Of a stretch of DNA of 64,000 bases, positions 16,840 through 29,214 are shown piece by piece. A model generated the notes under the pieces. That model did not search any database. It was not told where the DNA came from and saw nothing but the letters and a program-made list of their open reading frames with translations. The stretch is from Clostridia bacterium (GTDB taxonomy: Bacteria; Bacillota; Clostridia; UMGS1810): the NCBI GenBank assembly GCA_017481205.1, contig JAFUPN010000036.1, positions 1 through 64,000 on the forward strand, given 5' to 3'. The position numbers and the translations under genes were made by a program. The first letter of the stretch is position 1. Each line of letters starts with the position of its first letter.

Positions 16840-19800
16840 TTACTTGATATCCTCCCACTTGATTTCAAGTGTTTCCTTATCATTGAGATAGTAGTTGTGC
16901 GTGATGGTTGCTTCGAGCACGATTACATAATACCATTTTTCCGTTTTAAGGTCATTAAACGGATTTACCTCAAGAGTCTTTACATACTCATCATAAGGAC
17001 ATCTACCAAGAATCTTGTTTACAACAGTCATAACCTCTGCACGGGTGATATTTTTTTCAGCACGGAAGCTTCCGTCCTCATAGCCCTGCATAAGTCCTGA
17101 CTCGTGGAGGGAAACAATGTAGTCATGTGCCCAGTGGTCCTCAGCCACATCAGGATAAGGATTGTCACCTTCCGGCTCATCAAGCTTTACAAATCTTGTG
17201 ATAAGCGCTGCAAACTCAGCTCTTGTAAGAGCACCTGCAGGCTTAAACTCACCGTCGGGATAACCCTCAACAACATCCTTGTCTGTCATATACTCAATTT
17301 CAAGTACAGACCAGCGGTATTTTCCAACATCAGGGAACACATCGCCGGTAATAACAAAGGGTGATTCATACGCATGATTTGTAATTCTGTAAAGAATTAC
17401 CGTCATTTCCTCACGGGTAATATTGCCGTCCGGCTGAACACTGCCGTCGGGATAGCCCTTGATATAACCAATGTGTGTGGGATGCTCGTTTCCGAATATA
17501 TCCTTGGTATACTTTCTTGTGTTATCTACGGTTGTGGTACGGCTTCCGCCACCGCCTCCTCCGCCGCCACCGCCGGTATATTTAACGGTAGGCACGGTAT
17601 ATTTGTATGTAGATACAGGACCGTAAACTTCATTCCAGCAGTCCTCGGGATTGTCATCTTTACATTCAACACATTTTCCGCAGGTGCTGTGGTAAACTGT
17701 CTTAACAGTGGTTGCCTCATCGAGGCTGAGCTGTTCGCCGTTATATTTCTTGCGGTTTTCATTGTCCTCGTCGGAGGGGTCGCTTCCGTCAAGAGTATAG
17801 TACAGGTCGATAGTATCATCATCGGGATAATCGTCGATTATGGTATACTTTGTGCCCTTCTCAAACTCCACCTCATCTCTCGCTTCAAGAGAAGTTATTG
17901 CATTCTTAAGGTGAATAAAATCTATATCAAAGGTACTTTCACTGTCGTCTATTCTCGCGCCGTCCTTATCCACAAGCCATGCAGTAATGCTGATATCGTC
18001 CATAAGTGTGTTTACAAATATGGGAGCTGCAATATCATATACAAGATTGTTGGTTGTGGCAGACTTTCCGTCTGTGGTCTTGTAGGTGTAGAAATAATGG
18101 ATTTCCACATCATCCTCTCTGGTAAAGAGCTTTATACCCTCAGAGTATGGCTTTTCTGTGAGGACATGTGCACTTATGCGCTCAACATCATAGGGAGTAG
18201 CGATATACACCTTTCCTCCGGCACTTGCGCCTGATTCAATTATATAATAATGAATAGTATTTGCGCTGACACTGCCGGTCACATCATTTTTAACATAAGC
18301 CTTAAAGGACATTGTGTGCTCAATATCACGCTCTGTGCCGAGTCTGTAATAGTTATCGCCTTTATCACCGTTTACACGGTACCAGATTGAATATTTGAAT
18401 TTGGATGTATCGGTAGGAGCTCTTTCGTCAAGCTCAATATAGGTTGACGGAAGGGGATCTGCATCATATCTTCCTGATGCAAGGGTTATAATAGGAGCCA
18501 GGGGAACAAAGTTGTACACATAGCTTGAAGCGTCGCTGTATGCTCCGTCCTTAACCGCACGTGCCTGCAGCACTGTATTTTCGCTGAGCTTTATTATCTC
18601 GCCGTCGGTATAATCACGCCATACCGAATCGTTATTGAGCATATACTGAATATCTGCACCTGTATTGAGTGAATAAAGCTTCACATGGAGCAGATTATTC
18701 TCTCCGTCAATATCTATTTCCTCGTATGTACCTGTCTTCTTATCGGCATATGGAGGAGCCAGATGTGTGGGCTCGCTGCTCAGGTCATAAATATATCTGT
18801 TGGGCTGGCTTGTTATATCATCCAGTGTGCCGGTTATCTCCAGCACTGCAGGAGCATTTATTTCTGTATCATTCACATTACCCAGAGGATTGCTGAGGGT
18901 TTCGCCGTCGTAATCATCGTAGGCATTGCCTGTTGCAGTGTCAATATAAAACTCGCCGTCATCGGTAACGAATTCATTTTCAACACCGTTTATATCATAG
19001 TTTACTGTGCTGCCCTTAACTGCCTCTACAGGAACAACAGGGAGTGTATCACCGCTGATTACAGCGCCCGGAGCAGCCACAGGAGCCTCGGGAGTGATGG
19101 TATAGTCAAAAATACCTATATCACTTGTAGTATTGAAAACAACACTCTTTGCAACAGCCTTTATTACAGTGTGCCCCTTTACCTCTATGGGATTGCCGTC
19201 ATAAAGTATTGTACCCTCCGCACCGGGAACCGGGTCGGGACAGAACTTGCCGTCATAGCAGATTGTATAGTAAATCTCCGTGCCCTGAGGAACAGGCATA
19301 AACTGTGTCGAAAAGCCTTCTTCATTGTCTATCTCGTGGGTATAATTACCGGGGAGAAGTGTGGTTATAGGCTTAACAGGCTTTTTGGTTACTATATCGT
19401 AGGAATGGGTAACAACATCGGAATAGGTTGTACCATCCTTTTTTACAACTGCTGATATAACTGTGTAATCAGAAATCTTGATTGTAACAGAGTCGGATTC
19501 TTCATCAGCCATTTTTGCAGTTTTGCTTGTTACAGGGTCTGTGCCGTCGGTGGTGTACCAGAGTTCAAATCTGTCTGTATTTGATATAGTGCTTTCCGGG
19601 CAATAGATGGTAACATTATCCGCATTGGTAAACTGTGTGCTCTCGGGTGCAAATTCAGGAGGAATAGGCTCGATTTTGTATGTAAACACATATTCCCCGC
19701 CCTCAGTGCCGTCCGGGTCGATTGCTTTTGCTATAATGGTTGTATCCTTGTCTATCACAAGTACATCGTCATAATCTCTCCATTCCCCTTCCGGGTCATC

Positions 19801-21453
19801 GTCATAACGATACTTGATAGTATTCTGAGGATTGTTTGGTGTAAGAGTTACATTAACACTGCCCTCATATACACCGGAGGGATAGAATGCATCCACTCCG
19901 TAATCATCATAAGCGGTAAACACATACCAGAATGAGGATATACCGCTGTATTCTCCGTCATACATAGCAACCGCACGAACAGTGGTATCCTTTGCCAGAG
20001 TCAGAGGGACAGAATATTCAAGTCCGTTGGTAATCGGGTCTGTACCGTCTGTGGTATAATAAATTGTTGCTCCCTCAGTCTCGGTGCTGAGCTCAACATC
20101 AATCTTTGAGTCGTACTCACCGGAAATAGGGTCGGCTGTAACAACCTTCGGCTTGATACCGAGATAGTACCATGCTACCTCACTGAGCTCTCCGGTAACA
20201 ACATTCTTTGTAACAAGTCTTACAGTACATTTTTTGTCAATATCAATTGTCTGCAGAGCTTTTTCAATCTTAACCCATTCATTATCAGGGTCGGAGCCGT
20301 CTGCAACACTGCTTACAGCAGCGTCTGAAAATGTATAATAAATCTCGTGTTCATCGGCAATATTGTCAAACACACTGCTGTCGTCCACATATACGGTAAA
20401 CGCACTGTATTCACTGTGGATATTTGGCAGCAGACTCTTGCTTTCGTCAAAAAGGAAGGGAGCCGGAGGGATAATGTCATAGCTGTAGGTCACCACATTA
20501 CTCTCTCTGCCGTCGGAATCACGCACTGCATAGCAGGTGATATCCGTATTCATGCTTACATCAATAGGCTCTTCAAATTTAACATAGGTTTTGCCGCCGT
20601 CCACAGACCAGTATATAGTACTGCCGGGCTCCGCGGTAAGAGTAACCTTCTGAGCGGTGGTATACACGCCGGAAGCAGGATTTGCCACAGGTGCAGTAGG
20701 TTTATTTTTGTCCTTGATTATAATATTATGAAATCCGCCGTTTACCGCGCTGAAATCAAAGGTCTGTTCCTCAAGATTGCCGGTAACATTTTTTGCAAAG
20801 AGCTCCAGAGTATATGGGTCGGAGCCGTCTATGTCGATAAATACATCGGTACTGCCGGTACGCAGCGGAGTCAAAGGAAGCTTACACAGGTTGTACCAGA
20901 GGTCGCCCTTTGTCATATTGGGCAGATATGTACCGCTGAAGAATATTGTAGCATAAGCCGTCTTATAGGTCTTGCCGTTAATATACTTGCTGTCACTGCC
21001 GTGTCTGTATTCATAATATCCTACAGACTGAGGTACATCATCCTCAACCTTGCCGTCTCCTACCTCCTCGTTGTCCTTGTCACTGGTTTTTATCTTGCTG
21101 TCTGGCACAGTGTAATCGATAGGTCTGGCGGTATCTGATGCAACATATGCAAAATACAACGGGTCAAAATAAATCTTTACGGTATATCCGTTAAGATCAA
21201 AATGAGGTTCAAGATGGAGGTCACCGTCCATAGCTCCTTTATTAGGATTGTCGATTGCGAAATAAAGGTCAGCGGTTTCTCCCATATACACCGTACTGGA
21301 ATTCTTGGTCTCAGTGGGATTTGGCCCCTGAGCGTGAAGATACACGGTACGCTGAGTCCTTTCATCCACCTCGGCTGATACAAAGCCGGAGGGAATCAAT
21401 GTTATGAGCATCGCCAATGTCAATAAAACTGCCAATATTCTTTTGTAAGCCAT
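16840..21453 (-). CDS. Giant SLH-anchored protein with chitobiase C-terminal-type repeats (1537 aa)
   Basis: An exported surface protein. After the signal peptide (ends near VSA), residues about 30-240 form a beta-sandwich that resembles a cohesin (GYTVKIYFDPLYFAYV early, a DFSAVNGGFH-type end late). Then come about a dozen repeats of the chitobiase/beta-hexosaminidase C-terminal type (PVANPASGVY, ATIYYTTDGTDPIT, TTVRAVAMYDGEYS). A poly-Gly linker precedes three C-terminal SLH domains (GYPDGSVQPDGNITREEM, GYPDGEFKPAGALTRAEF, GYEDGSFRAEKNITRAEV). It probably projects a binding head from the wall on a long repeat stalk. No catalytic site is seen. The promoter and hairpin leader lie at 21513-21625. 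Confidence 0.75.
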   Translation of the reverse strand: MAYKRILAVLLTLAMLITLIPSGFVSAEVDERTQRTVYLHAQGPNPTETKNSSTVYMGETADLYFAIDNPNKGAMDGDLHLEPHFDLNGYTVKIYFDPLYFAYVASDTARPIDYTVPDSKIKTSDKDNEEVGDGKVEDDVPQSVGYYEYRHGSDSKYINGKTYKTAYATIFFSGTYLPNMTKGDLWYNLCKLPLTPLRTGSTDVFIDIDGSDPYTLELFAKNVTGNLEEQTFDFSAVNGGFHNIIIKDKNKPTAPVANPASGVYTTAQKVTLTAEPGSTIYWSVDGGKTYVKFEEPIDVSMNTDITCYAVRDSDGRESNVVTYSYDIIPPAPFLFDESKSLLPNIHSEYSAFTVYVDDSSVFDNIADEHEIYYTFSDAAVSSVADGSDPDNEWVKIEKALQTIDIDKKCTVRLVTKNVVTGELSEVAWYYLGIKPKVVTADPISGEYDSKIDVELSTETEGATIYYTTDGTDPITNGLEYSVPLTLAKDTTVRAVAMYDGEYSGISSFWYVFTAYDDYGVDAFYPSGVYEGSVNVTLTPNNPQNTIKYRYDDDPEGEWRDYDDVLVIDKDTTIIAKAIDPDGTEGGEYVFTYKIEPIPPEFAPESTQFTNADNVTIYCPESTISNTDRFELWYTTDGTDPVTSKTAKMADEESDSVTIKISDYTVISAVVKKDGTTYSDVVTHSYDIVTKKPVKPITTLLPGNYTHEIDNEEGFSTQFMPVPQGTEIYYTICYDGKFCPDPVPGAEGTILYDGNPIEVKGHTVIKAVAKSVVFNTTSDIGIFDYTITPEAPVAAPGAVISGDTLPVVPVEAVKGSTVNYDINGVENEFVTDDGEFYIDTATGNAYDDYDGETLSNPLGNVNDTEINAPAVLEITGTLDDITSQPNRYIYDLSSEPTHLAPPYADKKTGTYEEIDIDGENNLLHVKLYSLNTGADIQYMLNNDSVWRDYTDGEIIKLSENTVLQARAVKDGAYSDASSYVYNFVPLAPIITLASGRYDADPLPSTYIELDERAPTDTSKFKYSIWYRVNGDKGDNYYRLGTERDIEHTMSFKAYVKNDVTGSVSANTIHYYIIESGASAGGKVYIATPYDVERISAHVLTEKPYSEGIKLFTREDDVEIHYFYTYKTTDGKSATTNNLVYDIAAPIFVNTLMDDISITAWLVDKDGARIDDSESTFDIDFIHLKNAITSLEARDEVEFEKGTKYTIIDDYPDDDTIDLYYTLDGSDPSDEDNENRKKYNGEQLSLDEATTVKTVYHSTCGKCVECKDDNPEDCWNEVYGPVSTYKYTVPTVKYTGGGGGGGGGGSRTTTVDNTRKYTKDIFGNEHPTHIGYIKGYPDGSVQPDGNITREEMTVILYRITNHAYESPFVITGDVFPDVGKYRWSVLEIEYMTDKDVVEGYPDGEFKPAGALTRAEFAALITRFVKLDEPEGDNPYPDVAEDHWAHDYIVSLHESGLMQGYEDGSFRAEKNITRAEVMTVVNKILGRCPYDEYVKTLEVNPFNDLKTEKWYYVIVLEATITHNYYLNDKETLEIKWEDIK

Positions 21454-21512
21454 TAGTCTGATATCTCCTTTTCTTGAATATTTTGTATGTCTGTTGGAAA
21501 AAGCAAAAGATA

Positions 21513-21566
21513 TTATTTTCCTTTAAAAGCGCACAAGCTTTATTATGTGCTTTTAAAGGAAAATAA
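21513..21566 (-). promoter_or_regulatory. Long 5' leader hairpin of the giant SLH gene
   Basis: TTATTTTCCTTTAAAAGC (21513-21530) and its exact reverse complement (21549-21566) form an 18-bp stem. It lies downstream of the promoter at 21597-21625 and about 60 bp before the start codon, so it would fold in the mRNA leader. It may stabilise the transcript or respond to a signal. Confidence 0.6.
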
Positions 21567-21596
21567 GACCGAAAATAAAACTAGCTTTACTATTTT

Positions 21597-21625
21597 ATTT
21601 TATTACTGCATCCCCATAATGTCAA
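21597..21625 (-). promoter_or_regulatory. Sigma-A-type promoter of the giant SLH gene
   Basis: On the minus strand TTGACA (21620-21625), a 17-bp spacer, and TAAAAT (21597-21602). This predicts a leader of roughly 130 nt. Confidence 0.75.
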
Positions 21626-21757
21626 GTTTTTTTTGAATATGTCATATTATTGTCACACTGATGAAAACAGCCAATGCCTTCATTCATCATTTCCGGACGG
21701 CAAAAGCCGCCCGGAAATAATAAACATATTCAAATGCGAATTGATGTCAATTCAGCC

Positions 21758-24700
21758 TTAGTTGCCCCAGGATACGAGCACGTATGCAACGTCCTTGGAG
21801 TCAATTTTTCCGTCACGGTTGAGATCATACTTAGCATAATCAGCCTTGTTTGATGCAGAAAGGTTGATTTCACCGAAATATGATACAACTGCTGACAGGT
21901 CGTATACATTGATGTTGTTATCCTTAACAATATCGCCTGCAAGGAAGGTTACCTTCTGTGCATTTTTATTACCGGAAGCACTTTCTTCAACATATGTATC
22001 GTTATCCATTACGTTGTTCCAGAAGTTAAGAGTCTTATCCTCTGTCATAGAAACTGTATATTTAGCTGTTCTGTAGCCTGCACCTTCTACTGTTACAGTG
22101 TAAGGTGTATTGAGTACAAGGTCAAGACCTTCAACCTCAGGAGAGTTTGCATTATCTGTGCTGTAGTATACAACACCGTTTTCATCTGTCTGGAGGTTGT
22201 AGCTATCCGCGCCGTCCTTACCATTTGAAAGATAAAGTACCTTATTATAATCAGGACCTGTTACTGTTACAGTCATTTGCTGATATGCCTTTTCGTTTGC
22301 AGATACAGCATTGGGGAATGCAACGTTAATAACAAGGTTGCGTGTGGGGATTTCGATCGTGCCCTTTGCTGTGCTGTCAATATTGAGCTCACCGTCATTG
22401 TTAGCGGAACCGCCCACATAGAAATGCTCAACAACATTGTTAGCTGTCTTTGCAGTGTTAACAATGTTTTCACCTGCATTCTTGTCTACAGAAAGCTCAT
22501 ATTCGCCATAGCCGCTGATTTTAACCTGAGCTATTTTGATTCTGTTTGCAGTCTCATCAGGCTGTGTAACACCATCAAAATTGAACAGGTAACGGTCTTT
22601 GTTTTCACCGTGAAGTGTAATGCTTACGGGCTCAACAGGAATGATTTCATAAGTCATAGCTGCATTCTTTGCTGCAGTTGATTCAAGAAGGAATGTAAGG
22701 TCAGCAGAGTTGAGTCTGTTGATAAACTGTGCATTGCCTTCTACATAAATGTCATAAAGGTCAGCAACCTCTTCTTCAGCTGCATCATTAATTGCAGCAG
22801 TCTCAAATACGATTGACAGATTTGCAGAAATAATATCTTCATTAATATCTCCTACGAATCTGATATCTTCACCTTCGGGAACCTGAATTTTTACATCTGA
22901 GAGAGGTATGCTGTCAGGCATAATCTTAATTACACCGGAAGCAGTAACAACTGTTTCGCGTGTAACTTCGTCACCGTCATCTTCAAATCCACCGGAAATA
23001 AGATATGCATTTGCATAGCTGCTCTTAGGTGCATTGAGTGTTACATTTTTAAGATTGAGCTCAACCTCATCTGTAGCAACAATAGCAGACAAACCGATTG
23101 TATATTCTGAATCCAGTTCACCTGATGATACATAAGAATCATTAACTGTTACAGAAGATTTACCTGTTGCAACGATACCTTCGCCAGCTGATTTTGTAAA
23201 GGCTGCGGTAGAAGCACCGCCTATGATGCTTGAATTGTTAATAGTAACAGTTGCATCCTTAACCTTAAGACCTGCACCGGCAATACCGTAGGATACGCCG
23301 GGCTGATATGTCTCGCTGTTTGCAAGAGAACCGCCCTGCAGAGTGATATTGTTGATTACAACATTTGCACCGCTTGTAACAGAAAGAGGTGTTACTGCAG
23401 TAGTATTATATTCTTCTGCATTTGCTACAGCTGCACCTGTAACGGTATGACCGTTACCATCGATTGTAACATTTGTGTTAACAACAGCAGTAGTTTCTTC
23501 AACACTGTCACGTGTAAGAATAATTGTATCTCCTGCCTGTGCTGCAGCTGCAGCTTCAGCAAGACTGCCATAATAGTTATCATTGATTCTTGCAACAGTG
23601 ATAAATGTTTCCTCTTCAACGAGTTCACCAACTGCTTCGTCAGAGCCCTCAGCATAGTAAGGAGCTCCTACGGCTACAGGAGTTTCGTCTGCAACATATT
23701 CGCCGTCTTTGTTGATACGGTATATATTGCCTGCAAAACGGCAATTGATGAATTTAACACCCTCATCTTTGCTGCCATTGTGCCATACACCTGCGATACC
23801 GCCGATTTCGCCTTCGGATTCATCAGAATATTCGGTAAGATAAACATCTCCGGTAACAAGGCAGTTTTCAAAGGTATTGCCATAGTGAGCTATACCTGTA
23901 ACACCGCCGATATCACATGTTGAACCGTAAACATCAATGTTTGTGGTAATATTGGAAACTGTATGACCGTTTTCGCCCATAAAGCCTACAACACCGCCAA
24001 CATATGTACGGTAGTTTTCGCCATTTTCAATAGAATATGCTTTAACATAGCTTGTATCATCAACATTAATTACGAGATTGCTTGCATCATTATATAAGTT
24101 ACGTCCAAGAAGACCGCCAACATATGACATACCATTGATTTCAACATGACCTGTAAGATTAATGTTGTTTACAGCAGATGTATAGGGGCTGCCTGCCAGA
24201 GCACCTACTCCAAGACGACCTGATACGGAAGCATTGTGAATATTAATGTTGCGAAGCTCACCATCTGATGCATAACCAAACAGACCAAAATAGCTGTTAG
24301 AGCCGGTTACCTTAAGGTTTGAAATTGTGTGACCGGTACCGTCAAATGTACCGAGGAATTTGTTTGTGCTGTTACCGATAGGTGTCCATTCCATGTTGTT
24401 AAGGTTAATATCATCAGCAAGCTTAACAGTCTTTCCAGCATATGTATTTCCTGCATTTACTTCATAAGCAAAAGCAATAAGCTCATCAAGTGTGCTGATA
24501 ACCTTGTTGTATACAGCCACTTCGCCTTCAATAACATTAGCATTGCCGTTAGCATCCTTTGTTTCTACAGCAGGCTTACCACCGTTTGTATATGCTTCAA
24601 CTTCAACAGTTTCTGCAATAGCAACAGATGCTCCTACAAATGTACCGCTTCCGTTCGCACCGGAACCGATTGCACTTGCACATCTGTATGAATCAGATTT

Positions 24701-25822
24701 TTCTTCATTGTAATGGAGACCTGCAATTGCTGTGATTACAGATTCTCCTACAATGTCAATATCAAGGTTGTTGCTCTTGTAGCCACCGCCGATACCTGCA
24801 CCTGCAGCACCGCCGACTGCTGTTACTGTACTGTCGGAAATATTAATAGTTGTGGTTGACATTTCAGAAGCAGGACAGGAATCAGTGTTATATCCGTTAC
24901 CAATTCCGGCACCAAAATATCCGCCCTTTGCGTCAATTGTAGAACTTTTGATATTAATTCCCGCGTAAAGATTTGCATGTTCCTTGCCGTAACGACCCAT
25001 ACCGATAGCTGCAGCAGATGCACCGCCTGTTGCTGTTACCTTGCTGTTATCAATTGTAATTTTTTCAATACCGCACCAGTAACCTGTACCGATACCGGCT
25101 GCCTTCTGACCGCCGTTAGCAGTAACTGTACTGCCTGTAATGGTAATATTTCCGGTAAAATCACCATTACCATAACCGCCGCCGATTCCGGCGCCGCCTT
25201 CGGGATCAGTCTTTGCATAATCCAAATCAAGGCTAATGCCGCCTTCAACATAGCAGCCGCCTTTTGCGTTTACTACAGAGTCGGTAATAACAATTTCTTT
25301 ACTGAGGCTGCCTTTAGCCGAGCCGATACCTGACGCATGTTTACCATATCCGATAGCATTTACAGTAGCATCGATAATGGTGATTTTACCGCTTGCACCG
25401 TTTTCTGCTGTACCGCCGATACCTGCACCGCCGAATGCGGTAGTATCTTCAACACCGCCATTACCGATAGCAGTAAGCACGCCTGTACCTGTAATTGTAA
25501 CAGAAGCACCCTCTGCTACATAGATACCTGCGCCGCCATTGGCACCGGTAAGTGTTGTGTCAGCATCAACTTTGATTGTAACATCGCCGCTGAGAATACT
25601 GATTGCAGACTCACCGTCTGCTGATGCTTTAATTTCTCCGCCGTTCAGTGTAACAGTATTACCCTCTACTGTTGCAACGCCGGAATCATCTGCAATTACA
25701 ACTTCTGCTACGGCATCAAGCAGCTCTGCGGCTGCATCGTCCTCAGCAAATGCTGTAAAGCTCATGGTACTGAGTACCATCGCCATTGCAAGTACAATGG
25801 CAAGAACCTTTTTTGCCTTCAT
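21758..25822 (-). CDS. Secreted GLUG/beta-helix protein with C-terminal type I dockerin (1354 aa)
   Basis: An exported protein with signal peptide MKAKKVLAIVLAMAMVLSTMSFTAFA and an AAAGGAG ribosome site. Residues about 50-420 are Gly-rich strand repeats (GGAGIGGG, ASGIGSAKG, SAIGSGANG) typical of a right-handed beta-helix. About 480-740 carry GLUG-type repeats (YFGLFGYASDGEL, YVGGLLGRNLY, DIGGVTGIAHYG). Further helix-like repeats reach about 1000, then Ig-like strands. The last 60 residues read as a type I dockerin: FLAGDIVKDNNINVYDLSAV, then YDLNRDGKIDSKDVAYVL, with Ca-binding Asp/Asn spacing. No catalytic residues are recognised, so it may be an adhesin or binding subunit docked to a cohesin-bearing partner. 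The cohesin-like domains nearby (16840 and 26380 genes) are candidate partners. Confidence 0.75.
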   Translation of the reverse strand: MKAKKVLAIVLAMAMVLSTMSFTAFAEDDAAAELLDAVAEVVIADDSGVATVEGNTVTLNGGEIKASADGESAISILSGDVTIKVDADTTLTGANGGAGIYVAEGASVTITGTGVLTAIGNGGVEDTTAFGGAGIGGTAENGASGKITIIDATVNAIGYGKHASGIGSAKGSLSKEIVITDSVVNAKGGCYVEGGISLDLDYAKTDPEGGAGIGGGYGNGDFTGNITITGSTVTANGGQKAAGIGTGYWCGIEKITIDNSKVTATGGASAAAIGMGRYGKEHANLYAGINIKSSTIDAKGGYFGAGIGNGYNTDSCPASEMSTTTINISDSTVTAVGGAAGAGIGGGYKSNNLDIDIVGESVITAIAGLHYNEEKSDSYRCASAIGSGANGSGTFVGASVAIAETVEVEAYTNGGKPAVETKDANGNANVIEGEVAVYNKVISTLDELIAFAYEVNAGNTYAGKTVKLADDINLNNMEWTPIGNSTNKFLGTFDGTGHTISNLKVTGSNSYFGLFGYASDGELRNINIHNASVSGRLGVGALAGSPYTSAVNNINLTGHVEINGMSYVGGLLGRNLYNDASNLVINVDDTSYVKAYSIENGENYRTYVGGVVGFMGENGHTVSNITTNIDVYGSTCDIGGVTGIAHYGNTFENCLVTGDVYLTEYSDESEGEIGGIAGVWHNGSKDEGVKFINCRFAGNIYRINKDGEYVADETPVAVGAPYYAEGSDEAVGELVEEETFITVARINDNYYGSLAEAAAAAQAGDTIILTRDSVEETTAVVNTNVTIDGNGHTVTGAAVANAEEYNTTAVTPLSVTSGANVVINNITLQGGSLANSETYQPGVSYGIAGAGLKVKDATVTINNSSIIGGASTAAFTKSAGEGIVATGKSSVTVNDSYVSSGELDSEYTIGLSAIVATDEVELNLKNVTLNAPKSSYANAYLISGGFEDDGDEVTRETVVTASGVIKIMPDSIPLSDVKIQVPEGEDIRFVGDINEDIISANLSIVFETAAINDAAEEEVADLYDIYVEGNAQFINRLNSADLTFLLESTAAKNAAMTYEIIPVEPVSITLHGENKDRYLFNFDGVTQPDETANRIKIAQVKISGYGEYELSVDKNAGENIVNTAKTANNVVEHFYVGGSANNDGELNIDSTAKGTIEIPTRNLVINVAFPNAVSANEKAYQQMTVTVTGPDYNKVLYLSNGKDGADSYNLQTDENGVVYYSTDNANSPEVEGLDLVLNTPYTVTVEGAGYRTAKYTVSMTEDKTLNFWNNVMDNDTYVEESASGNKNAQKVTFLAGDIVKDNNINVYDLSAVVSYFGEINLSASNKADYAKYDLNRDGKIDSKDVAYVLVSWGN

Positions 25823-25888
25823 CTTGTTCTCTCCTTTGTTAAAATAAAATGTTTTTAGAGAATTGGATTTTACAAAAAATTCAATCTC

Positions 25889-26094
25889 TTTATAAGCCTT
25901 TAAGCACCGTTAGACTGTCGAATTATTACCGGTTTTGCTTGCCATTCTGTAGGGACGGGGCGCTTTTTGCACAGAAAATCAGGATTTTCCATGCAAAAAG
26001 GATGCAAAGCATCTGACAGCCACCATCCCTGAATAGCTCTTTTGTGCGACAATTGAATTATTCGACAGTCTGCAGTTGATTAAAAGCTTATAAA
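25889..26094. mobile_element. MITE-like element with 35-bp terminal inverted repeats
   Basis: The left end (25889-25923) and the reverse complement of the right end (26060-26094) align without gaps over 35 positions. TTTATAAGC, TTTAA and AGACTGTCGAAT are identical; an 8-bp central block differs. The interior is non-coding, with a secondary stem CTTTTTGCA/TGCAAAAAG. No target duplication is evident. It is either a miniature inverted-repeat transposable element or a large structured intergenic repeat. Confidence 0.6.
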
Positions 26095-26307
26095 GGGGCT
26101 GAATATCATCAGCATATAATCACCCCAAGCGAAGCCAAATTTTATCATAATTCAGCTTCGCCGAGAATGATAGCTTATATCGTATTAATGATATCACAAA
26201 TCTCATATAGATTCAATTGTGATATTTTCCGAAAACACACGCATATTAAGCATTTGATATCGCCAAAGAAGTCAATTTCAAATCAAAATATCAGATAACA
26301 TGTGTTA

Positions 26308-26364
26308 CAAAAAAATCCCATATAAACGGCTCAGTGATAAAATAAATATCAAGGAGCCGTTTAT
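26308..26364 (-). terminator. Terminator of the cohesin-like/SLH gene
   Basis: ATAAACGGCTC (26322-26332) and GAGCCGTTTAT (26354-26364) form a perfect 11-bp stem. On the minus strand a run of seven T (26309-26315) follows, 16 bp after the gene stop. Confidence 0.85.
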
Positions 26365-26379
26365 CGGTGAATAATTAAA

Positions 26380-28497
26380 TCAGTTCATAAGAGCTGCAAG
26401 TCTGTTACACATTACTGCAACCTCTGCTCTTGTGGCATTGCCAAGGGGATTTACTCCGCCGCCGGAGCCCTGAATAATGCCTGCGCCTACCATTGCTGCC
26501 ATAGGAGCAGCTGCGTAGTCGGATATACTTGCTTTATCATTGAATGAATCAAGATTTGACAAATCTGTTGCCTCTGCAATATAACCCTTTGCCTGGAATG
26601 CACGATATGCAAGAGTGATGAGGTCCTGTCTGGTGATAGAGTCCTCAGGACGGAACATGTTGTTATCGCCCTTTGCTATGCCGGCTGCCTTCGCCTTAGC
26701 GATAGCATCATAGTAGTAGCTTCCGGCAGGAACATCGGCAAAGTTATCGCTTGCTGCCACATCATCCAGCTTGAGCATTCTGGTGAGAATGAGGATAAAG
26801 TCACCGCGCTTGATATTGAGCGAGGGTGAATAGGTGGTTGCACTTGTACCGCTGATGATACCTGCATCCTTAAGAGCATAGATTGCTTCCTGAGCCCATT
26901 CATAGCCGCCAAGGTCTGTAAACAGACCGGATGCTGCATCAGTTGTTCCGGTTGTGGTGCCTGGAGTGGTTACGGGAGTGGAAACAGCGCCACCTACGGA
27001 GCCGCCTCCGCCACCGCCGCCTCCGCCGCCACCGCCACCGCCTCCGCTACCGGAGTCGGAGCTTGAGCCGGAATCAGTCTTGGCGTTTGCAGTGTCAGAG
27101 AATTCGCCGGTACCTATTGCATTTACAGCCGCAATGGATACATAATATCTTTCGTCTTCATCAAGGTCTTCTATAGTTGTTTTTGTCTTGCTTGCATCTT
27201 TAATCTCAACAGTCTTGTTAAGAGAGTCAGAGGATGTGCCGTACTTAATCACATATCCTGTGATAGCAGAGCCTCCGTCTGCAGGCTTTGTCCATTCAAC
27301 CTCAAGCTCTTCGCTACCGCCAGAAAGCTTGGGAGCAGACATCTTTGCAGGAACAGTTGCTGTATCCGTTGTATTATCACCGGTGCTGCCAGAATTGCCG
27401 GAGTTGCCGTTGTCTCCGGAACCGTCTTCGGGAAGCTCAATGCCCGCATATACTATATCGGTGCTTCCGTCCTTGGAAATATCGTACATGTCTATAACTC
27501 CGCTGCGGTCAAAATCGGCTGCTTCGTTACAATCAGCATTGTTTGCTTCATAGGCTTCGAGTGCCTCGTACCAGGCTTTTTTATCGTAGCCGTCAACATC
27601 GCCGTCGGCATCAATATCGCCAGGGATAAAATCAGCATTGGTGATTTCCAGAGCTTCATCAAAGGTGACACCCTCTGCTTTGTATGTAACATAGCCTATA
27701 CCGCTGACTTCTACAGTATATGTATCATTGGCAAGAACAGTATTTTCAACAGTAAATGAAGCTACGGATGTGTTCTCACGGTGACCGCCCTTGGAAACAA
27801 GAGTGTTGTTAAGCACTGTATAAATGGTATAGCCTTCTGTATTCTCGCTGGTAATCTTGATTTCCACACCACTGCTGGAATATCCGTCCTGAGTATTGGA
27901 ACCGGCAGTAAAACCGGCAATACCATCCATTACAAGCTTAACCGTAGCGGTTATACCCTCGTTATCAGACTCACTGCTCTTGAATGTTTTAGTAATCTTT
28001 TTGTTTGCCTTAAGGTCCTTATTATCACCTACAGTGCAGAATGCATTTTCCGGGTCATTGAGAGAAAGCTCAACCTTGTCTCCAGCCTCACCTGCAAATG
28101 TCAGGATAAAAAGATCTGTCTCATCTTCAAATGTAATGGGTTCACGAGGGCAAACTATGCTGGGCATAAGCTTTTTCTGGTTGTTTGCCAGAGCCGCATT
28201 GGGAGAATGTAGATAACAACTTGGCGGGTTATTTTCTCCCTTAAGGAACTGTATGGACTTATACTTCAGGTCACCGTCAAATTCCAAAGGAATCTGAGCG
28301 ATAGTAGCCTCGCCGGCAGCCCCTTTGACACTTACCATAACTTTTGCCTCTCCGCTGAGTGTTGTCGGGTCAGAGGAGGTTACGTCGGTAAAAATTACTT
28401 CAATTGTGTCGGAAGCCGCAAACACTGGTACAGATACTGCAACCATAACAGCCGCAAGAAATGCCGCACCGAGTTTTTTGAAAAAATGTGATTTCAT
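26380..28497 (-). CDS. SLH-anchored cohesin-like/dockerin-like/FN3 protein (705 aa)
   Basis: An exported wall protein. The start is ATG 28497 (MKSHFFKKLG) with AAAGGAAG upstream; the signal peptide ends near FAA. Domains in order: a cohesin-like beta-sandwich (about 30-170), a CnaB-like or linker region, and a dockerin-like EF-hand pair (about 285-345; FIPGDIDADGDVDGYD and ADFDRSGVIDMYDIS). Then a fibronectin type III domain (about 385-475), a run of 15 Gly, and three SLH domains (about 525-705; TYSPSLNIKRGDF, MFRPEDSITRQDL, NPLGNATRAEV). Having both a cohesin-like and a dockerin-like module on one SLH-anchored chain suggests an assembly scaffold on the wall. It lies 56 bp after the TetR gene, probably in one transcript. 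Confidence 0.7.
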   Translation of the reverse strand: MKSHFFKKLGAAFLAAVMVAVSVPVFAASDTIEVIFTDVTSSDPTTLSGEAKVMVSVKGAAGEATIAQIPLEFDGDLKYKSIQFLKGENNPPSCYLHSPNAALANNQKKLMPSIVCPREPITFEDETDLFILTFAGEAGDKVELSLNDPENAFCTVGDNKDLKANKKITKTFKSSESDNEGITATVKLVMDGIAGFTAGSNTQDGYSSSGVEIKITSENTEGYTIYTVLNNTLVSKGGHRENTSVASFTVENTVLANDTYTVEVSGIGYVTYKAEGVTFDEALEITNADFIPGDIDADGDVDGYDKKAWYEALEAYEANNADCNEAADFDRSGVIDMYDISKDGSTDIVYAGIELPEDGSGDNGNSGNSGSTGDNTTDTATVPAKMSAPKLSGGSEELEVEWTKPADGGSAITGYVIKYGTSSDSLNKTVEIKDASKTKTTIEDLDEDERYYVSIAAVNAIGTGEFSDTANAKTDSGSSSDSGSGGGGGGGGGGGGGGGSVGGAVSTPVTTPGTTTGTTDAASGLFTDLGGYEWAQEAIYALKDAGIISGTSATTYSPSLNIKRGDFILILTRMLKLDDVAASDNFADVPAGSYYYDAIAKAKAAGIAKGDNNMFRPEDSITRQDLITLAYRAFQAKGYIAEATDLSNLDSFNDKASISDYAAAPMAAMVGAGIIQGSGGGVNPLGNATRAEVAVMCNRLAALMN

Positions 28498-28553
28498 TGG
28501 TAATCTTCCTTTCTTTAATTTATTTTGATTAAAACAAATCACTTAGGTCATAG

Positions 28554-29108
28554 TCAGGCTTTACCTTCAACAAAACGCCTGTATATGTAGTCCAGCTGAT
28601 CTCGGGTCTTTTCGCGGTCTCCCCATATGGCATAATCCATAACGGCAGATACAAAAAGATATACCAAAGGCAGCGTAATGTCAACGGACAGGTCAAGAGC
28701 CTTTGAAATACTTATGGCATATTCGTGATACACCGGTTCTAAATCATCGCAGCGTTTTCTGATTATATCGCCGTATACAGGGCTGCAGGCAAGCTGATAT
28801 ATAAATCTCAGAGCCTCCCTGTGCTCTTCCATTTTTTCCAGGCATATTTCAAAAGAGCTGTGCAAATCACATATATTTTTAAATGCATGGGCAAAAATGT
28901 CGTCGGATACGGTAATCAGACCGTACTCAGCAGTATCTGCAATCAGCTGCTCTTTGTTTTCAAACCAATAGTACACACTGCCGATTGATATATCTATACC
29001 CTTGCAGAGCTCACGCATAGATATATTTTCAAGACCGTTTTTTGAGAGAAATTCAAAGGATGCCTGCAGAATGTCATTTCTGTTTTCGCGGTTTTTGGGT
29101 TTTCTCAA
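28554..29108 (-). CDS. TetR/AcrR-family regulator
   Basis: A one-component regulator of 184 residues. The N-terminal helix-turn-helix is clear (RNDILQASFEFLSKNGLENIS, then MRELCKGIDISIGSVYYWFENKEQL, written here in two parts). The C-terminal ligand domain is all helical and unassigned. The start was placed at TTG 29108 because GGAGG lies eight bases upstream; the ATG 14 codons earlier has no ribosome site. A promoter is at 29215-29244. It precedes the cohesin-like/SLH gene by 56 bp and probably controls it and itself. The ligand is unknown. Confidence 0.85.
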   Translation of the reverse strand: MRKPKNRENRNDILQASFEFLSKNGLENISMRELCKGIDISIGSVYYWFENKEQLIADTAEYGLITVSDDIFAHAFKNICDLHSSFEICLEKMEEHREALRFIYQLACSPVYGDIIRKRCDDLEPVYHEYAISISKALDLSVDITLPLVYLFVSAVMDYAIWGDREKTRDQLDYIYRRFVEGKA

Positions 29109-29214
29109 GTTGTCCACCTCCGGAGCATTAAAGCTGATACATATGAACAATTGTCACAAAATTTGGCAAAAAAATATACCGGAGTCAAAAGACATATATT
29201 CAGCAATCAAGGTA

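Follow-up and report, generated by a model that had tools for sequence, protein, structure and literature searches.

The nearest precedent for the locus described here is the CttA-ScaE pair of Ruminococcus flavefaciens, in which, according to passages of PMC4081043 and PMC2930009, a dockerin carries a cellulose-binding protein to a cohesin on the cell wall; bringing an adhesin to the wall by means of a dockerin is already in print. CttA has an X-module, and X-dockerin:cohesin pairs of gut ruminococci withstand high force (both from parts of PMC7456326). In a 64,000-nucleotide stretch of contig JAFUPN010000036.1 from an uncultured Clostridia bacterium of the gut (assembly GCA_017481205.1), the whole of which is called the window below, the products of three neighbouring genes, P1, P2 and P3, on balance probably make up a stand-alone cohesin-dockerin system, not of the cellulosomal kind, that displays diversifying beta-helix proteins on the cell wall. 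As in the CttA-ScaE case (the same passages of PMC4081043 and PMC2930009), a non-enzymatic binder would be held by a dockerin in a wall cohesin, its gene clustered with those of scaffoldins. CttA-ScaE, however, is part of a full cellulosome and uses type III modules, sortase anchoring and a carbohydrate-binding module as cargo, whereas here anchoring is by SLH domains, the modules are divergent or resemble type II, the cargo consists of several diversified beta-helix copies, and no plant-wall enzyme dockerins were recognised among the proteins scanned.

Other known systems share single traits with this locus. In Clostridium thermocellum, SdbA is a type II cohesin-SLH anchor. The likeness to that organism lies in the SLH anchoring, in the P2 dockerin, whose nearest relative is the CipA X-dockerin, and in the predicted fold of P1, nearest to cohesins of which many are type II; the C. 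thermocellum type II dockerin, however, ends an enzyme-loaded scaffoldin, whereas the dockerin here ends each cargo protein directly. Part of PMC12484212 describes type II pairs as serving cell-surface attachment, normally of scaffoldins. As with the cohesins of Clostridium perfringens glycosidases and of Archaeoglobus fulgidus, the modules here stand outside cellulosomes; those cohesins are borne by enzymes or lone proteins, whereas here they are on dedicated SLH anchors beside dockerin genes. Dockerins on non-enzymatic repeat proteins recall R. flavefaciens, for which passages of PMC2930009 count 28 leucine-rich repeats and 155 unknown domains among the dockerin proteins, and for some of whose group 4 dockerins the authors suggest surface structuring. 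That species has about 220 dockerins and a cellulosome, compared to 1-10 dockerins per genome in the 14 genomes with P3 considered below. A literature search covering titles and abstract openings found no description of a dockerin system in Monoglobus, Monoglobales or Ructibacterium. What is new here is a cassette that stands alone, no dockerins of plant-wall enzymes having been recognised, and in which the type II-like tag sits directly on many diversified beta-helix proteins, together with two predicted SLH-anchored cohesins that are invisible to Pfam.

The window is one contig (C19) of a metagenome-assembled genome (MAG) of 2.22 Mb in 43 contigs, 71% complete (G000, the own genome below). 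P1 denotes the product of the gene at 16840, P2 the middle product (21758-25822) and P3 the product of the gene at 26380. At the places given in an earlier note made from the letters alone (the sequence-only reading), all three reading frames are open, on the minus strand; they are read in the order P3, P2, P1, with gaps of 557 bp between P3 and P2 and 304 bp between P2 and P1. The P3 start had been placed at 28497, which is an in-frame ATG; here the gene is taken from a GTG at 28542. With signal peptides judged by eye, the layouts are signal, cohesin, X-module, dockerin, fn3 and three SLH domains for P3; signal, beta-helix passenger, beta-domain, X-module and dockerin for P2; and signal, cohesin, five CHB_HEX/Fn3_assoc repeats and three SLH domains for P1. 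The features are as follows.

16840..21453, minus strand: P1 gene, 1537 aa; SLH anchor with an N-terminal cohesin (by predicted fold) and a long repeat stalk
17032..17469, minus strand: P1 wall anchor, three SLH stretches (Pfam)
17554..20673 (approximate), minus strand: P1 stalk of CHB_HEX_C_1 / Fn3_assoc repeats (Pfam PF13290 and PF13287, five stretches each)
20674..21375, minus strand: P1 cohesin, residues 27-260, divergent and Pfam-invisible (AlphaFold2, Foldseek, VIA-align and profile)
21758..25822, minus strand: P2 gene, 1354 aa; beta-helix protein with a C-terminal dockerin
21779..21940, minus strand: P2 dockerin, type II-like (PF00404, 34.3 bits in the genome search; relatives among CipA X-dockerins)
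21950..22750 (approximate), minus strand: P2 constant beta-domain and X-module (CarboxypepD_reg/PEGA-like), preceding the dockerin
22751..25732 (approximate), minus strand: P2 passenger, repetitive and beta-helix-like (Pfam Beta_helix_3), variable between paralogues
26380..28542, minus strand: P3 gene, 720 aa from the GTG; cohesin-X-dockerin-fn3-SLH; in-frame ATG at 28497
26416..26922, minus strand: P3 wall anchor, three SLH domains (Pfam; VIA-align 3pyw, Z 20.9 over 175 residues)
27088..27321, minus strand: P3 fn3 domain (PF00041, 49.4 bits; VIA-align Z about 15)
27475..27624, minus strand: P3 dockerin, residues 307-356, nearer type I / ruminococcal (20.2 bits in the genome search)
27643..27960, minus strand: P3 X-module, residues 195-300 (profile match to the P2 X-module)
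27973..28413, minus strand: P3 cohesin, residues 44-190, very probable, divergent and Pfam-invisible (AlphaFold2, Foldseek and profile)

By its predicted fold, the N-terminal domain of P1 is a cohesin, an assignment that we regard as secure. Its AlphaFold2 (AF2) model, obtained with 13 sequences, has a pLDDT of 84.1 and a pTM of 0.82. In a Foldseek search of the PDB, the top 17 matches are all cohesins (1g1k_A, E 5.3e-5), 13 of them titled type II, and a p53 domain follows at rank 18 (8.2e-4). All 50 rows returned by VIA-align are cohesins or cohesin-like modules, with Z between 9.3 and 12.7, including 2vo8, 2jh2 and 2w1n from C. perfringens and 2xdh from A. fulgidus. We also aligned the trimmed domains to a merged profile of 27 Pfam-visible cohesins, with 100 column shuffles and with reversed and other-domain controls. 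The P1 domain scores 30.9, compared to 11.5 +- 2.1 for its shuffles, none of which reaches as high. The controls remain at noise level, with 12.7 for the P3 X-module, 11.7 for the P2 X-module, 14.6 for the P2 beta-domain, 16.0 for the P3 fn3 domain and 13-18 for all reversed alignments. A first reading of the P2 beta-domain as a third cohesin found no support, its score of 14.6 being that of its reversed control and 3 of 100 shuffles being as good, and the domain is left unnamed.

The N-terminal domain of P3 is very probably a divergent cohesin as well, on a fold assignment less firm than that of P1. In the AF2 model of the whole protein (12 sequences), its pLDDT is mostly 82-95, falling to 62-77 around residues 101-120. 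The top Foldseek match in the PDB is 3kcp_A (E 9.7e-11, 337 columns, 303-residue chain), which we take to be the cohesin-X-dockerin fragment of CipA; chains of 4fl4 occupy ranks 2, 5 and 7, the cohesin-fn3 pair 2w1n of C. perfringens stands at rank 38, and the remaining rows are mostly fn3 proteins. Against the merged cohesin profile, the domain scores 24.8 in an alignment of 110 columns that is in register end to end, compared to 11.4 +- 2.3 for its shuffles (0 of 100 as high). Both N-terminal domains, which the sequence-only reading had called cohesin-like, therefore fold or align as cohesins. Pfam PF00963 matches none of the 13 P1-family members and none of the 12 P3-family members, PDB profile searches using the P1 domain gave zero matches, and profile comparisons of P1 with P3 and of P1 with P2 found nothing. 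Pfam being a detector and not a defining property of the fold, the P1 domain is still filed as a divergent cohesin. The same reading had placed both domains on SLH proteins, and Pfam finds three SLH repeats in P1 and in P3; its chitobiase-C-repeat stalks hold for P1 and not for P3, which has one fn3 domain only.

The dockerin of P2 is recognised in the Pfam scan of the product (PF00404, 27.5 bits versus a cut-off of 22.9), and the same family is present in 52 of 52 P2-family members. It had been called a clear type I dockerin. The module stands; type I is rejected, since the profile searches put type II X-dockerins closest. The best solved relatives of the P2 tag profile are 2b59_B (the CipA X-dockerin, 1.6e-6), 3kcp_A and 5g5d_B, followed by 5k39_B, and a smaller P2 profile finds 2b59_B at 1.3e-7. 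The alignment with the CipA X-dockerin shows a common first loop, GDIVKDN.IN, with an unusual valine at loop position 3 in both. With two calcium-loop F-hands, a preceding X-module and type II X-dockerins as nearest relatives, the P2 dockerin is placed with type II. Its two loops differ at positions 10-11 (V/I-Y versus S-K), which suggests a single binding mode. In G057, a genome lacking P1, both P2 dockerins (L061, L026) read DLDRNG.IDARD where DLNRDG.IDSKD is found elsewhere; the change, a single case, affects positions in the second loop that usually take part in recognition.

P3 carries a dockerin of another kind. The copy in the window scores 17.4 bits on its own, below the Pfam cut-off; PF00404 matches 12 of 12 P3-family members (best 2.8e-9), residues 307-356 contain two F-hands, and the family profile finds solved dockerins, 5lxv_B of R. 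flavefaciens first (1.1e-7) and then enzyme dockerins. With the P2 dockerin nearest to CipA type II and that of P3 nearest to 5lxv_B and enzyme dockerins, two classes of dockerin are present at the locus. The X-modules preceding them are related (profile match with probability 90.6, E 1.3e-6), the X-end plus dockerin of P2 and P3 align with a probability of 96, and the P3-family profile (A8) aligns to the X-dockerins 4wi0_B, 4u3s_B and 2b59_B starting inside the X-module. Within the P2 family, Pfam reports PEGA in 31 and CarboxypepD_reg in 26 of the 52 members. The idea that the dockerins are stray modules was rejected, both being retained throughout the aligned families (12/12 for P3, 52/52 for P2). 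Other dockerins do occur in the own genome, at four places over the Pfam cut-off in addition to P3. Neither of the two outcomes that the sequence-only reading had named as fatal to it, N-terminal domains with another fold and a genome free of further dockerin proteins, was therefore obtained.

The P2 tag is nearly constant and its cargo is not. The own genome has P2 paralogues on two further contigs, C21 and C37. Among 13 paralogue pairs from six sets, the own three included, identity is 24-33% for the passenger (one pair having only 25 aligned passenger residues), 42-82% for the beta-domain and X-module, and 78-100% for the dockerin. We scanned the passengers of 46 of the 54 complete full-length P2-like proteins, leaving out seven and one open reading frame (ORF) of 237 aa. 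A dockerin is present in all 46, and none of the 46 has a catalytic glycoside hydrolase (GH), polysaccharide lyase (PL) or carbohydrate esterase (CE) family. The passenger families recognised are Beta_helix and Glug (four each), Beta_helix_3 (two), and LRR_5, DUF1565, a Chlamydia PMP repeat and a pectate-lyase-like adhesive domain ('Pectate_lyase_5'), one each; a few matches, such as Adeno_E1B_55K in three proteins, were taken as spurious. The description of P2 as a beta-helix/GLUG protein held for the beta-helix, Pfam reporting Beta_helix_3; GLUG is not reported for the window's protein, although it occurs in the four family members just counted, and was rejected as its main fold. One P2-like protein (L093:6200-11128, Zagget12) ends abruptly within the second dockerin loop in a frameshift-like manner.

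Dockerin proteins outside the cassette were scanned in the 14 genomes with P3, covering 19 of 26 proteins, three of the 19 being incomplete sequences; the seven omitted have frames of 156-291 aa. No cellulase or xylanase family was found in these 19, which include a single GH25, a single RGI_lyase beta-sheet and a single HL_N-beta domain (the last two being lyase accessory domains) and two subtilases. Of the 19 (L157-L175), eight also match Pfam Cohesin, in L157 immediately ahead of the dockerin, and chains with both modules seem to be common in this lineage.

The right-handed beta-helix is the fold of many polysaccharide lyases, and the C37 paralogue adjoins an ORF that by eye resembles a GH28 polygalacturonase. 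The passengers could accordingly be divergent lyases, acting on pectin or other polysaccharides, that are carried to the wall in cellulosome style, which would make the assembly a minimal enzyme complex. We consider this very unlikely, as the 46 scanned proteins lack any catalytic GH, PL or CE family, the sole Pectate_lyase_5 match is described as an adhesive domain, and passengers of the same genome, at 24-33% identity, are more like adhesin or polymorphic repeat proteins. The sequence-only reading had proposed an assembly for binding rather than a cellulosome; "not a cellulosome" agrees with both scans, and its interpretation overall is partly supported.

The three genes form a conserved cassette with nested co-occurrence. 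Scanning named genomes for the P2 tag yielded 52 gut Clostridia loci, many of which end at contig ends; they include goat, buffalo, deer and chicken MAGs, Candidatus Roslinia, an uncultured Monoglobus and the cultured Ructibacterium gallinarum DSM 107454. P3 and P2 occur together at 13 of the 52 loci, the next P2 lying 62-833 bp downstream in 12 of the 13, and P2 and P1 at 12, the distance downstream to P1 being 61-387 bp in 10 of these; all three are present at eight. One contig has P3 followed by four tandem P2 genes, and a second locus there ends in the start of P1 (L063, L068). In one set of 391 Clostridia genomes, full-length P3 is found in 14 (nine more match through the X/dockerin region only), the P2 tag in 13, all within those 14, and P1 in 10, all within those 13. 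The relatedness of the genomes makes these counts non-independent; the cassette genomes, cultured R. gallinarum among them, span seven families, other sampled members of which mostly lack all three genes. The P2 dockerins are near-invariant across families.

As P3 has both a cohesin-like module and a dockerin, the two might pair together, within the chain or head to tail, stiffening or cross-linking the surface layer, with the P2 dockerin as a structural cap. The retention of both modules in every aligned relative of P3 and the eight of 19 scanned dockerin proteins that also match Pfam Cohesin would fit such pairing. It is nevertheless distinctly unlikely in our view. In the uncultured Monoglobus (G031, L025:5329-7696), the P3 homologue is split into a cohesin-X-dockerin protein without SLH and a separate cohesin-SLH protein, which is expected if the modules act between proteins, in a plug-and-socket manner. 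The near-invariant P2 dockerins likewise suggest a shared recognition surface and not a cap.

In the display system that we favour, P1 and P3 would be fixed to the wall by their SLH domains, each exposing a divergent cohesin, that of P1 at the tip of a long repeat stalk giving it reach. P2 and its C21 and C37 paralogues would be exported, each uniting a beta-helix passenger, which varies, and a C-terminal tag of beta-domain, X-module and type II-like dockerin, which is nearly constant. The dockerin would plug, with calcium, into a wall-anchored cohesin; the most likely socket is P1, pairing type II-like with type II-like, and P3 may be an alternative or additional one. Through its own dockerin, of the second class, P3 may act as an adaptor that engages another cohesin. 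The most likely target of the passengers is a surface, be it a plant polymer, mucus or another cell. Binding, its calcium dependence, the pairing, the surface location and the kind of ligand are what we infer from these predicted modules.

The choice of socket can be compared across genomes. Of the 391 genomes, 163 have Pfam cohesins, among them 10 of the 13 with the P2 tag; the three P2-tag genomes that have none are G115 (94% complete), G148 (93%) and G190 (88%). The 14 genomes with P3 have 68 dockerins, which divide into 42 belonging to P2 or P3 and 26 remaining ones, a split made by hand from positions (G263:C48:129 was placed from its sequence). G115 and G190 have three dockerins each, all P2 or P3, and one P1 each; with no Pfam cohesin and only cassette dockerins, the visible cohesins in these two genomes are those of P1 and P3 alone. 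P1 is missing in three of the 13 P2-tag genomes (G057, G243 and G362), all of which have Pfam cohesins, so the P3 cohesin or those Pfam cohesins must serve there. We infer that the partner of P2 is favoured by type to be P1 and by constant company to be P3.

Alternatively, the P2 and P3 dockerins might dock onto Pfam-visible cohesins elsewhere in the own genome, the cohesins of P1 and P3 taking other partners. On contig C8, Pfam matches cohesins four times, three of these above the cut-off, within SLH proteins, namely a five-repeat SLH scaffoldin and an SLH-cohesin protein; its 1520-aa SLH protein with repeated cohesins is unlinked to the P1-P3 cluster. Pfam cohesins in 10 of the 13 P2-tag genomes also fit this arrangement. 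We nevertheless consider it unlikely, since three genomes with the P2 tag (G115, G148 and G190) lack any Pfam cohesin, all dockerins of G115 and G190 are cassette members, and P2 adjoins P3 and P1 and not C8-type genes. The end of contig C25 (L029) and the start of C8 (L027) overlap by 141 exact bases, so that a second cohesin-dockerin locus runs across both contigs, with a 288-aa dockerin protein, a repeated cohesin-like protein with a dockerin-like end and an SLH-cohesin protein; the 1520-aa protein lies about 14 kb beyond it.

Several points weigh against the proposed display system. The own MAG is 71% complete, and in it the C8 cohesins could act as sockets. The absence of P1 from G057, G243 and G362 means that P1 is no universal partner. 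In the VIA-align rows for P1, type II cohesins and the non-cellulosomal cohesins of C. perfringens score within Z 1 of each other, and these rows therefore assign the P1 cohesin to neither kind. The profile-profile probabilities against cohesins are low in absolute terms (41 for P1 and 17 for P3); comparisons of the first small alignments with the own genome's Pfam cohesins found nothing, and those with larger alignments were also weak, all under 18 (best 17.7). The N-terminal domain of P3 was modelled only within the full-length protein and not alone, and VIA-align on that model did not pick it out, SLH and fn3 matches filling the list. The structure predictions covered single chains only. 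Finally, the passengers may be divergent enzymes, with a lyase hidden in the beta-helix.

Around the cassette, a TetR-type regulator is encoded on the minus strand at 28554-29150, 11 bp upstream of the P3 GTG start, accompanied by a promoter-like site (12-of-12) at 29244-29215; among ORFs of at least 300 aa, to which the comparison was confined, no such regulator was seen upstream of P3 in L023 and L024. At the other end of the window, a pemK RNA motif at 27-105 on the plus strand (57 bits versus a cut-off of 34.8) sits upstream of a serine recombinase at 495-1799, also on the plus strand. The surface of the own MAG is rich in SLH proteins, with 127 SLH matches (E up to 0.001) in its 2.2 Mb of incomplete genome. 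An NCBIfam search gave no informative name.

A broader interpretation, to which we give even odds, is that in a branch of gut Clostridia comprising Ructibacterium, Monoglobus relatives, Roslinia and ruminant-gut MAGs, a type II X-dockerin may now serve generally as a C-terminal sorting tag for beta-helix surface proteins, whose repertoire is diversifying. Two dedicated SLH-anchored cohesins, hidden from Pfam by their divergence, would read this tag, in some species as the sole such system, and its whole purpose could equally well be, or not be, the interchangeable surface display of binders. Cohesin-dockerin pairs have mainly been studied as the joints of cellulosomes; if the interpretation is true, they would have a second, adhesive use in common gut bacteria. 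Pfam would then undercount cohesins, as 3 of the 13 cassette genomes appear cohesin-free. The cassette would also be a naturally occurring display system of tag and socket, its cargo interchangeable, and directly testable in the cultured R. gallinarum DSM 107454.

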